A stretch of 64,000 nt of DNA from Plantactinospora mayteni (GTDB lineage: Bacteria; Actinomycetota; Actinomycetes; Mycobacteriales; Micromonosporaceae), in the NCBI RefSeq assembly GCF_016862935.1, contig NZ_BONX01000020.1, positions 1-64,000 on the forward strand, in the 5' to 3' direction. Shown here one piece after another: positions 44,576 to 49,583 of the stretch (its first letter is position 1; every line of letters begins with the position of its first letter). Under the pieces are notes generated by a model. That model saw nothing but the letters and a program-made list of their open reading frames with translations, was not told the DNA's origin and did not search any database. The position numbers and the translations under genes are program-made.

Positions 44576-46216
44576 ATGGCGGACTTGTTCGAGGACTACC
44601 GCCTCGGCCCCGGCTGGGACGAGATGTTCGGCGCGCCCGGGATGCCACGGGACGTGTACGAGGCGCTGCACGCCACCCTGCAACCGCTGTCCAGCGTCGA
44701 ACTCCGGGTCCGGGCCGACGTGCTCGCCCGGGCCTTCCTCGACCAGGGGATCACCTTCGCCCTCAAAGGCGTCGAGCGGCCGTTCCCGCTGGACATCGTG
44801 CCCCGGATCATCGCGGCCGGCGAGTGGCGGGTGGTCGAGGCCGGAGTCGCCCAGCGGGTACGGGCACTGGAGGCGTTCCTCGCCGACATCTACGGCGCCG
44901 GCCAGGTGCTGGCCGATGGGGTGGTACCGCGTCGGGTCGTGGTGACCAGCGCGCACTTCCACCGCGAGGCCGCCGGGATCGTCCCGCACAACGGGGTACG
45001 CATCCACGTCGCCGGAGTCGACCTGGTCCGCGACGAGCGGGGCGACTTCCGGGTGCTGGAGGACAACGTCCGGGTCCCGTCCGGGGTCAGCTACGTGATG
45101 GAGAACCGCCGGGCGATGGCGCACGTACTGCCGGAGGTCTTCGCCGCGACCCGGATCCAGCCGGTGGAGTCGTACCCGGGGCAGTTGTTGCGGGCCCTGC
45201 GCGCGGCGGCGCCGGTCGGGATCACCGACCCCACGGTGGTGGTGTTGACCCCCGGCGTGCACAACTCGGCCTACTTCGAGCACGCCCTGCTGGCCCGCGA
45301 GATGGGGGTCGAGCTGGTCGAGGGTCGGGATCTCGTCTGCGTGGGTAACGAGGTCGCCATGCGGACCACCGCCGGTGAGCAGCGGGTCGACGTCATCTAC
45401 CGGCGGATCGACGACGAGTTCCTCGACCCGGTGCACTTCCGGGCCGACTCGGTGCTCGGGGTGGCCGGGCTGCTGAACGCGGCCCGGGCCGGCCGGGTCA
45501 CCATCGCCAACGCGGTCGGCAACGGGGTCGCGGACGACAAGCTGCTCTACTCGTACGTCCCCGAGCTGATCCGCTACTACCTGGCCGAGCAGCCGATCCT
45601 GTCCAATGTGGAGACGTACCGGCTGGAGGACCCGGACGTGCGCGACCACGTCCTCGACCGGCTCGACGAACTCGTGCTGAAGCCGGTCGACGGCTCCGGC
45701 GGGGCGGGCATCGTGATCGGCTCACAGGCGACCGACGAGGAGTTGGCCGAGCTGCGGCGCCGGATCAGCGTCGACCCACGGGGCTGGATCGCCCAGCGCG
45801 AGGTGGCGCTCTCCATGGTGCCGACCCTGGTCGGCAACCGGCTGCGGGCCCGGCACGTCGACCTGCGGCCGTTCGCGGTCAACGACGGGCAGCGGGTCAC
45901 GGTGCTGCCGGGCGGGCTGACCCGGGTGGCGCTGCCGGAGGGCGCCCTGGTGGTCAACTCCAGCCAGGGCGGCGGGTCGAAGGACACCTGGATACTCGCC
46001 GAGCCACCGTCCGGGCTCAGCCCGGTGGACCTCACCTCCGGCATCGATACCCCGGGAGTCGACCCGGCCGACCCGGCCGCGTCGGTGTCGTCGACCGTGC
46101 CGGTGCCGCGTAGTCCGGACCCGGGACCGGACGCCGGACTGGTCAGCGTGCAGCAGCAGCAACAGCAGCAGTCCGCCCGGGAGGCCGCGGCCGGAGCGGG
46201 GCGGTCGCGGTGCTGA
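44576..46216 (+). CDS. Circularly permuted type 2 ATP-grasp protein
   Basis: A 546-residue protein of the circularly permuted ATP-grasp family, predicted to form amide bonds between a carboxylate and an amine using ATP. Visible family segments are GITFALKGVERPFPLDIVPR, LEDNVRVPSGVSYVMENRR, the nucleotide region VLKPVDGSGGAGIVIGS and RPFAVNDGQRVTVLPGGLTR. The last 60 residues are a disordered tail ending with seven consecutive Gln encoded by CAG/CAA repeats. It overlaps the alpha-E gene by 7 nt. This trio (ATP-grasp, alpha-E, transglutaminase) was proposed from comparative genomics to synthesise or process a peptide; the product is not known. Confidence 0.9.
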   Translation: MADLFEDYRLGPGWDEMFGAPGMPRDVYEALHATLQPLSSVELRVRADVLARAFLDQGITFALKGVERPFPLDIVPRIIAAGEWRVVEAGVAQRVRALEAFLADIYGAGQVLADGVVPRRVVVTSAHFHREAAGIVPHNGVRIHVAGVDLVRDERGDFRVLEDNVRVPSGVSYVMENRRAMAHVLPEVFAATRIQPVESYPGQLLRALRAAAPVGITDPTVVVLTPGVHNSAYFEHALLAREMGVELVEGRDLVCVGNEVAMRTTAGEQRVDVIYRRIDDEFLDPVHFRADSVLGVAGLLNAARAGRVTIANAVGNGVADDKLLYSYVPELIRYYLAEQPILSNVETYRLEDPDVRDHVLDRLDELVLKPVDGSGGAGIVIGSQATDEELAELRRRISVDPRGWIAQREVALSMVPTLVGNRLRARHVDLRPFAVNDGQRVTVLPGGLTRVALPEGALVVNSSQGGGSKDTWILAEPPSGLSPVDLTSGIDTPGVDPADPAASVSSTVPVPRSPDPGPDAGLVSVQQQQQQQSAREAAAGAGRSRC

Positions 46217-48115: not shown

Positions 48116-48180
48116 GGCCGAGCCGGGCGAGCAGATCGTGGCCGGGTGGAAACCGCGTGCGCTCGGGTGGCCGGCGGCAG

Positions 48181-48186
48181 TACGGT
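48181..48186 (+). promoter_or_regulatory. -10 box of the threonine attenuator
   Basis: TACGGT lies 7 nt before the ATG of the leader peptide, so the leader transcript is probably leaderless. No strong -35 box is apparent. Confidence 0.5.
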
Positions 48187-48193
48187 GGCCGGC

Positions 48194-48250
48194 ATGTGCA
48201 GCGCGATGAGGAAGACGACGACGCCGGGACACCCCGGCGTGCCGCGCTGA
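48194..48250 (+). CDS. Threonine-rich leader peptide of an attenuator
   Basis: An 18-residue reading frame, MCSAMRKTTTPGHPGVPR, with three consecutive ACG threonine codons at 48215-48223. It begins 7 nt after a -10 box. It lies upstream of a threonyl-tRNA synthetase gene, exactly where a ribosome-stalling leader peptide would be expected to sense charged tRNA-Thr. The third Thr codon is the first part of the pause hairpin at 48221-48240. The peptide itself is probably only a sensor. Confidence 0.7.
   Translation: MCSAMRKTTTPGHPGVPR
48221..48240 (+). promoter_or_regulatory. Attenuator pause hairpin (stem 1:2)
   Basis: ACGCCGGG (48221-48228) is exactly complementary to CCCGGCGT (48233-48240) with the loop ACAC. 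A ribosome stalled on the Thr codons would cover the left arm and prevent this hairpin. CCCCGG at 48232-48237 could then pair with CCGGGG at 48275-48280 as an antiterminator. Confidence 0.65.
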
Positions 48251-48271
48251 CGCAGACCAACTCGTCGACTG

Positions 48272-48296
48272 GCCCCGGGGCGATCCGCTCCGGGGC
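48272..48296 (+). terminator. Attenuator terminator hairpin (stem 3:4)
   Basis: GCCCCGG (48272-48278) pairs with CCGGGGC (48290-48296); G-U and two further pairs extend the stem to about 10 bp with a 5-nt loop. TTCGTCGT follows. It lies 76 bp before the synthetase start codon, well separated from the preceding gene, so it would act as an intrinsic attenuator. Confidence 0.65.
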
Positions 48297-48371
48297 TTCG
48301 TCGTGCGTACCAGATCGGCGCGGTCCCCGGGGCGGAGCCGCCGCAGGGCCGTACCGGATCTGGGAGCTGAC

Positions 48372-49583
48372 ATGCACGACCACCGCAGGCTCGGGCGCGA
48401 ACTCGAGCTGTTCCACGCCGACCCGCTCTCCGGGGCCGGCCTGCCGGTCTGGCTGCCGGCCGGCGCCGCCGCCCGGCACGCCGTCGAGGAGTACGTCCGC
48501 GAGCTGGAGCGCCGGGCCGGCTACCAGCACGTCTACTCGCCCCCGCTGGGCAAGCGCGAACTGTTCGAACTCTCCGGGCACCTCGGCTACTTCGCCGACG
48601 ACATGTTCCCGGTGCTGCGGCTCTCCGCCGACGACGAGTTCGTACTCCGGCCGGCGCTCTGCCCGCACCACGCCCTGGTCTACCGGGCCCGGGGCCGGTC
48701 CTACCGGGAACTGCCGCTGCGCATCGCCGAGCTGGGCGGGATGTACCGGCCGGAGCGGTCCGGGGTGCTCGGCGGGCTCAGCCGGGTACGGGCGATCTCG
48801 CTCAACGACGCGCACAACTTCTGCGCACCCGAGCAGGTCGGCGCCGAGGTCGCCGAGGTGCTGGAGTTGACCCGGGCGGCGCATGCCGCGCTCGGGGTAC
48901 GCCCGGCGGGGTTCCGGCTGTCGCTGCGCGGACCGGGCGAGAAGTACGTCGGCGACGACGAGGAGTGGCAGCGCGCCGAGGAGCTGCTCCGGGCGGCACT
49001 GGGCGGCCTGCCGTACGTCGAGGCACCCGGGGAGGCGGCGTTCTACGGGCCGAAGATCGACATCCAGGTCCGGGACGCGGCCGGTCGGGAGTCGACCCTC
49101 GCCACCATCCAGCTCGACTTCGACAAACCGGCCCGGTTCGACCTCTCCTACACCGACGGCCGGGGACGGCGGGCGCGGCCGGTGATGGTGCACCGGAGCC
49201 TGGTCGGCAGCATGGAGCGGCTCTTCGCGTACCTGATCGAGGTGCACGCCGGAGCCTTCCCGGCCTGGTACGCCCCGGTCCAGGTACGGGTACTCCCGGT
49301 CGGGCCGGCGCAGGTGGCGGCGGCGGAGGCGTTCCGCCGGGACTGCGTACTCGCCGGGCTGCGGGCGGAGTTGGTCGTCGACGGATCACTCGGTGCCCGG
49401 ATCCGGGACGCTGCCCAGCGCCGGGTCCCGTACGCGGCGGTGCTGGGCGCCCGGGAGGTGGCGGCCGGGCAGGTGGCGCTGCGGCTGCGGGACGGCCGGG
49501 GGGTCGACCCGATGGCGGCGGGGGACGCGTTGGGCCTGATCGCCGGGGTGGTGGCCGACCGTTCGGCGGAACTCCTGCCCTGA
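48372..49583 (+). CDS. Threonyl-tRNA synthetase, short form without TGS and editing domains
   Basis: Charges tRNA-Thr. The 403-residue protein has only the class II catalytic core and the anticodon-binding domain; ordinary bacterial ThrRS has about 640-690 residues with N-terminal TGS and editing domains. Zinc ligands are present in RPALCPHHALVY, LNDAHNFCAPEQ and PVMVHRSLVGSMERL. The motif 2 arginine lies in MYRPERSGVLGGL and motif 3 is the GSMER segment. The anticodon-binding domain starts near PVQVRVLPVGPAQ. ATG 48372 has a GGGAG site. The upstream leader peptide suggests threonine-dependent control. It is probably a second ThrRS besides a full-length housekeeping one, which is not in the window. 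Confidence 0.85.
   Translation: MHDHRRLGRELELFHADPLSGAGLPVWLPAGAAARHAVEEYVRELERRAGYQHVYSPPLGKRELFELSGHLGYFADDMFPVLRLSADDEFVLRPALCPHHALVYRARGRSYRELPLRIAELGGMYRPERSGVLGGLSRVRAISLNDAHNFCAPEQVGAEVAEVLELTRAAHAALGVRPAGFRLSLRGPGEKYVGDDEEWQRAEELLRAALGGLPYVEAPGEAAFYGPKIDIQVRDAAGRESTLATIQLDFDKPARFDLSYTDGRGRRARPVMVHRSLVGSMERLFAYLIEVHAGAFPAWYAPVQVRVLPVGPAQVAAAEAFRRDCVLAGLRAELVVDGSLGARIRDAAQRRVPYAAVLGAREVAAGQVALRLRDGRGVDPMAAGDALGLIAGVVADRSAELLP

Follow-up and report, generated by a model that had tools for sequence, protein, structure and literature searches.

The short threonyl-tRNA synthetase (ThrRS) gene of Plantactinospora mayteni described here is probably preceded by a two-lock threonine attenuator of the ribosome-sensing kind, controlling a second ThrRS that is devoid of an editing domain. 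The gene was found in the window, that is, the whole stretch of 64,000 nucleotides analyzed (contig NZ_BONX01000020.1, positions 1 to 64,000). We are highly confident of the first lock, a threonine attenuator built around a leader peptide; for the relay that would pass the signal on to a second lock, at the Shine-Dalgarno (SD) sequence of the synthetase gene, the balance of the evidence is favorable but more modestly so.

The gene (48372-49583, plus strand) specifies a 403-aa product for which Pfam yields only two domains, the class II core and the anticodon-binding domain. The product scores above the NCBIfam thrS cut-off, covering only profile positions 171-552 of 565, and aligns with its best solved relative, 1nyq, from residue 241 onward. 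Because of this restricted profile coverage and of the late start of the 1nyq match, the protein is predicted to be a short ThrRS without the TGS and editing domains, which make up the N-terminal part of long ThrRSs. The CPHH, NDAH and MVHR stretches are present in the alignment with 1nyq; we take their residues to be the zinc ligands, and their presence suggests that these ligands are retained. The same genome also encodes a long ThrRS (locus L001, 680-aa frame), beside which the window gene appears to be a second, spare enzyme. The RNA model described below finds no match at the long-ThrRS locus at E ≤ 1.

Upstream of the short gene, and likewise on the plus strand, a -10-like box, TACGGT (48181-48186), ends 7 nt before the ATG (48194-48196) of a leader ORF of 18 codons plus stop (48194-48250; TGA at 48248-48250) that encodes MCSAMRKTTTPGHPGVPR, a spacing that would suit a leaderless start. 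Three consecutive Thr codons, all ACG, occupy 48215-48223. An earlier note on this DNA had described this leader with its Thr codons, a perfect 8-bp hairpin starting at the third of them, and the ability of CCCCGG (48232-48237) to pair with CCGGGG (48275-48280); all three readings were reproduced when coordinates and complementarity were recomputed. The hairpin, P1, spans 48221-48240 and joins strand 1 (48221-48228) to strand 2 (48233-48240). The terminator hairpin of the note was also found, with a slightly wider span (48271-48297 in place of 48272-48296): 12 GC-rich base pairs connect strand 3 (48271-48282), which includes CCGGGG, to strand 4 (48286-48297), and the sequence that follows on the 3' side, TTCGTCGT, has no clean U-run. 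In a further helix, P0, CAGCGCG (48199-48205) pairs with CGCGCTG (48243-48249) at the leader stop. Beyond the terminator-like hairpin lies a segment, s5 (48310-48319), with two potential partners. Its first part, CCAGATC (48310-48316), pairs with GATCTGG (48357-48363) in the SD region (48357-48366), which contains the SD sequence GGGAG (48362-48366); its GATCGGC (48313-48319) can pair with X (48279-48286), formed by the end of strand 3 and the loop. This SD-hiding helix is a second layer, absent from the earlier note. When folded computationally, the 186-nt region surpasses 200 of 200 dinucleotide shuffles (z -3.5). An Rfam scan of the whole window gave no family at gathering score, be it T-box, riboswitch or any other; nor was there a match to the enterobacterial Thr operon leader, which we take to be an Rfam family of that name. 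The window also has GGAAAC (48148-48153) some 45 nt ahead of the leader's start codon, and GGAAA(T/A/C)-like stretches occur at about the same place in many loci; they are perhaps an upstream promoter element. Elsewhere in the window, the ORF at 44576-46216 has seven consecutive Gln codons (46151-46171) near its C-terminal end, SVQQQQQQQSAREA, possibly a product of repeat slippage.

We envision the following sequence of events. Transcription would begin at the start codon of the leader, to be followed by a ribosome that translates the leader as the RNA emerges. When Thr-tRNA is plentiful, the ribosome would reach the stop codon and cover strand 2, allowing strands 3 and 4 to pair and RNA polymerase to terminate; in transcripts that read through with the hairpin closed, the loop would be hidden, s5 would pair with the SD region and translation would be off. 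When Thr-tRNA is scarce, a ribosome stalled on the Thr codons would cover strand 1, strand 2 would pair with strand 3 and the terminator would stay open. Loop X, being free, could then capture s5 before the SD sequence is made, leaving the latter open. The OFF state would thus comprise helices 1:2, 3:4 and s5:SD, and the ON state 2:3 and loop:s5. In this scheme we infer the leaderless start, the stalling, the pairing of strand 2 with strand 3, termination and the order in which the steps occur; the leader, its Thr codons, P1, the terminator-like hairpin, the SD-hiding helix and the loop:s5 helix are supported by comparison among loci, as detailed below.

A survey of 250 Micromonosporaceae genomes yielded at least about 150 short-ThrRS matches, and upstream regions were taken for 110. 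In 109 of these 110 loci, the short ThrRS is preceded by a leader ORF with consecutive Thr codons, itself preceded by a TAnnnT box whose first base lies 12-14 nt ahead of the ORF. The exception, L103 (G183, Micromonosporaceae), has a leader, MHISVSSTAPASPGVGSS, that has lost its Thr run, yet both hairpins are kept. A class-wide sample of 296 genomes contained a similarly close gene in 50, from the same family and four others, and the element was present in 28 of the 28 loci taken from the four other families, where leader forms include M(K/Q)RA..TTTP(E/D).VPAR. It was also present in 19 of 20 further loci found through the protein, the twentieth being cut by a contig end, and in nine named records (three from Micromonospora, two from Nocardia and one each from Nocardiopsis, Allokutzneria, Nonomuraea and Streptomyces). 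The pooled set of 170 loci includes at least three second copies from one genome, as well as 13 more loci that do not count as independent evidence, since it was the RNA model that found them. Runs of at least three Thr codons occur in 166 of the 170 (three in 165 and five in 1), the others having two (3 loci) or one (1 locus). The TAnnnT box lies 12-14 nt before the leader start in all 170, against a background of 0.0056, a count that is partly selected since the ORF picker favors ORFs with a -10 box. Among 80 loci from a protein search, leaders were sought in 15: they were present in 9 of the 9 at 57-80% ThrRS identity, and in none of the six examined from the 71 at 39-48% identity was there an ORF that combined paired Thr codons with a -10 box. 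Since the same arrangement precedes orthologous genes in many genera, a chance origin is untenable.

A covariance model for which 64 leaders from Micromonosporaceae served as input, 46 near-identical ones of the 110 having been excluded from alignments A1 and A2, matched the 28 other-family loci without exception (E ≤ 6.6e-10). The model was then searched, blind to protein, over 396 genomes of the phylum. Fifteen matches, among them that of the window, reached E ≤ 2.4e-7. Every one of the 15 precedes a short-ThrRS-like gene (about 50-100% identity), and five of them (L228, L231, L236, L238 and L240) come from four families labelled outside the class. Fifteen of the 23 weaker matches were inspected (L241-L255), and none has a ThrRS gene nearby. 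The window's own genome contains one strong match, the next best having an E value of 0.04. In these searches, the regulatory RNA serves one gene, and it matches no Rfam family. Divergent versions are seen in genomes labelled outside the class, at L240 (G718), L236 (G683), L238 (G792) and L231 (G780); the first of these has five consecutive Thr codons in its leader, MAGLRSTTTTTGLPPAVCRVR.

Whether the base-pairing itself is maintained was addressed by comparing duplex energies within loci with those between loci, with partners permuted 2000 times, in 47 representatives of less than 0.80 similarity (44 in an earlier version of the test). This comparison dropped 12 of the 170 loci, whose hairpins were missed by the stricter hairpin finder, and the finders misplace a few others: the hairpins of L097, L110 and L231 seem to be wrongly placed, and two of these loci, L097 and L231, are among the representatives. 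The z scores were -11.6 for P1 and -17.9 for the terminator-like hairpin, against 0.3 to 2.6, in the wrong direction, for five unrelated pairs of strands used as controls. The pattern recurs when permutation is confined within clades and on 35 other-family loci. P0, which links the bases just after the leader ATG to those at the stop codon, covaries as well (z -4.5); it may shield strand 2 or limit re-initiation on the leaderless start. Two other candidate pairings were set aside: the Thr codons with the stretch preceding the terminator, as in the minimum-energy fold of the window, were weak across loci (z -1.6 in the earlier version of the test), and strand 4 with the post-terminator segment was unsupported (z +1.6).

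The TTTPG core of the leader peptide is widely conserved, as one would expect if the leader acted as an arrest or bioactive peptide and its amino acid sequence, rather than the RNA, were under selection. However, this core coincides with P1, and outside it the peptide is variable, with a C-terminal part that changes from clade to clade. Moreover, at L046 a U-A pair replaces a C-G pair in P1 and the peptide is thereby changed (TTTSGDPD); that the pair is kept at the expense of the peptide argues for selection on the RNA at P1. We regard selection on the peptide as very improbable.

The antiterminator, 2:3, presents a different picture. Its z score was 0.4 in the 47 representatives and -0.6 in the first version of the test; as both strands hardly vary, covariation has no power on this helix. 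Complementarity between the two strands amounts to a median of 5 pairs and -10.2 kcal/mol (45 loci), with a nearly invariant helix. Folding of nascent chains produced the 2:3 pairing in 43 of 47 cases, yet in 86% of shuffles, too, strand 2 pairs with something downstream. The spacing of the parts fits attenuation. In 138 loci, strand 1 starts at the last Thr codon, the median distance from that codon to the beginning of strand 2 is 12 nt, and the median distance from strand 2 to the leader stop is 8 nt; given the footprint that we assume for a ribosome, one stalled on Thr would cover strand 1 and one at the stop would cover strand 2. The trp/his-type attenuation by threonine proposed in the earlier note, and the comparison of orthologous upstream regions that it suggested, are thus borne out for the Thr codons, P1 and the 3:4 hairpin, all of which are conserved, for the compensatory changes in the two hairpins and for the geometry; they are not for 2:3, the near invariance of which leaves it without covariation support.

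The termination signal leaves more room for discussion. On average 2.7 of the 8 nt at the 3' end of the hairpin are T, against a background of 1.4, and clean T runs occur at some loci (L116 and L078, for example). Nonetheless, the U-tract is weak or absent, with two T or fewer in these 8 nt, at 56 of 138 loci. One could imagine that the element is a purely translational attenuator, in which the GC-rich hairpin is a relay element and control is exerted only at the SD sequence of thrS. The weak U-tracts would be in keeping with this, as would the covariation of the SD-hiding helix, and termination at a corresponding leader of Streptomyces lividans is called unclear by its discoverers in the part of their account available to us (PMC8079986). 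The enrichment in T and the clean runs speak against such a scheme, which we consider distinctly improbable.

Evidence for a second lock comes from s5. In the within- versus between-locus comparison (47 representatives), its pairing with the SD region had a z score of -8.1 and its pairing with X one of -6.6. The loop core alone with s5 gave -6.2 and the terminator arm alone -0.2, which rules out the arm as the source of the match between loop and s5. Loop and s5 come in diverse versions, such as GGGCGAGTG/CACTCGCCC, GGGCGGATG/CATCTGCCC, GGGCGAACG/CGTTCGCCC, GGGGCGACC/GGTCGCCCC and CGGGGCACACG/CGTGTGCCCCG, among 43 loop types. An alignment of other-family loci (42 loci, 39 distinct rows) was also used. 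Over the 39 distinct rows, loop:s5 was 94.0% paired against 44-59% for slid controls and s5:SD 81.3% against 37-58%, figures in which the tested structures, having been taken from one row of the alignment, are favored over their slid versions. Doubly changed cells numbered 22 for loop:s5, against 7.9 in shuffles, and 22 for s5:SD, against 10.7. For s5:SD there were in addition seven doubly changed pairs, a value reached by 36 of 500 shuffles, and 17 further pair types, reached by 18 of 500. For loop:s5, the pairs changed on both sides (3 vs 2.6) and the further pair types (11 vs 11.6), which are the measures least prone to kinship, were not above shuffles. Two of five covariation measures of this helix are thus at the level of shuffles, and we marked down the likelihood of the relay for that reason. 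Both helices occupy alignment columns 56-62 and, therefore, exclude each other. That s5 should have two mutually exclusive, covarying pairings suggests a relay from termination to translation. Some such relay would be needed, for the Thr codons end at 48223 and s5 begins at 48310, 87 nt away; this is beyond what we take to be the footprint of a ribosome, so that a stalled ribosome could not itself block the SD helix.

In folding models, SD accessibility was 0.19, against 0.34 with the s5 segment shuffled (p 2.6e-6; 47 loci), and X paired with the post-terminator segment before the SD sequence is made with a value of 0.72, against 0.53 for shuffled X (38 of 45 loci). At equilibrium, a first test of the ON state did not open the SD sequence (p 0.19); in a second, for which the ON segment was taken from the end of the 2:3 helix onward, accessibility rose from 0.193 to 0.243 (p 0.024). 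Since the ON state barely opens the SD sequence at equilibrium, the relay would have to act through the order of transcription. In the window itself X:s5 is weak, at -9.1 kcal/mol with a mismatch, compared with -21.4 and -20.3 in the congeners L011 and L012, and the model leaves the SD sequence open whichever state is assumed (0.67 and 0.59). The slight opening at equilibrium, the weakness of loop:s5 in the window and its two measures not above shuffles would all be compatible with a plain attenuator of transcription, of the trp type and with a single lock, the SD and loop:s5 helices being incidental or serving RNA stability. This would leave unexplained why both helices score so strongly when unrelated pairs are near zero or of opposite sign, and why they use the same s5 columns in exclusive fashion. 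On these grounds we judge the plain attenuator unlikely, and lean toward the relay.

The earlier note knew of no leader-peptide attenuator for ThrRS in this group; one is, however, already on record. An RNA-seq study of S. lividans TK24, published in 2021, describes a leaderless thrL ahead of thrS, with two Thr codons and one hairpin in the text available (PMC8079986). Like the presumably leaderless element of the window, it is a leaderless Thr leader peptide, MKRVRPFLETTPGFVPAR, placed before thrS (PMC8079986). Among the leaders compared, that of L269, MKRAQPFLTTTPDSVPAR, is closest to it, and S. lividans thrL is very probably the same element. The account, as far as available, includes no antiterminator, SD helix or cross-species comparison (PMC8079986). 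The metL leader of S. lividans, MSTTSDRTPATEATTTPGARCMCRRMCAF, also has a TTTPG core; it is called Met-dependent in the portion at hand (PMC8079986, Table 4) and may be a Thr element. A 2005 survey, in the part available, lists attenuators for trp, trpS2 and leuS and no conserved structure for threonine (PMC1262725). These attenuators of Corynebacterium and Streptomyces combine a leader peptide with regulatory codons, an antiterminator and a GC-rich terminator, and some of them precede synthetase genes, for other amino acids (PMC1262725); the same set of parts is proposed for the window. In our search of the literature, which covered only a minority of subscription journals, we found no thrS attenuator in Micromonosporaceae and no SD lock on thrS. 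Leader-peptide control of thrS is thus already known; the breadth, anatomy and relay described here were not found in the literature searched.

The two-lock arrangement inspires analogies with Bacillus subtilis tlrB (yxjB), where, according to the part of the report available, a single leader peptide combines transcription and translation attenuation (PMC6851288). As in such dual attenuators, the window element has an SD-sequestering helix downstream of the terminator (s5:SD z -8.1; 81.3% paired). In tlrB, arrest depends on tylosin, both structures are direct targets of the stalled ribosome, and the same text identifies no overlapping antiterminator (PMC6851288). The window element differs in the chain of exclusive helices proposed here and in that, by coordinates, the stalled ribosome does not itself block the SD helix. 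The actinobacterial ileS translational T-box, as far as its description was available, also places an SD-sequestering hairpin and an anti-sequestor before a synthetase gene; however, it senses tRNA directly, without a leader peptide (PMC1262725), and the window has no T-box match in Rfam. As for the enzyme, the T2 protein of Anabaena is, in the available part of its description, likewise a second, stress-induced ThrRS with impaired editing beside the housekeeping one (PMC4787780). Low zinc is what induces T2, which still has an editing domain, if an impaired one (PMC4787780), whereas the window enzyme is without the domain and its leader reads Thr codons.

With these findings, what was briefly noted in a single Streptomyces becomes a conserved regulatory RNA. 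On the reading we favor, if by no wide distance from even, a multi-strand RNA relay would take one stalling signal past a terminator to an SD sequence about 140 nt downstream, double-locking, in several actinobacterial families, a ThrRS that lacks editing and is potentially error-prone; four of these families are labelled outside the class. If so, one stalled ribosome would govern termination as well as translation by way of a chain of mutually exclusive helices. A ThrRS that has no editing domain could load Ser on tRNA-Thr. The mechanism proposed here, if true, would explain how such an enzyme stays silent until Thr-tRNA runs short, as it might in the presence of ThrRS-inhibiting antibiotics.
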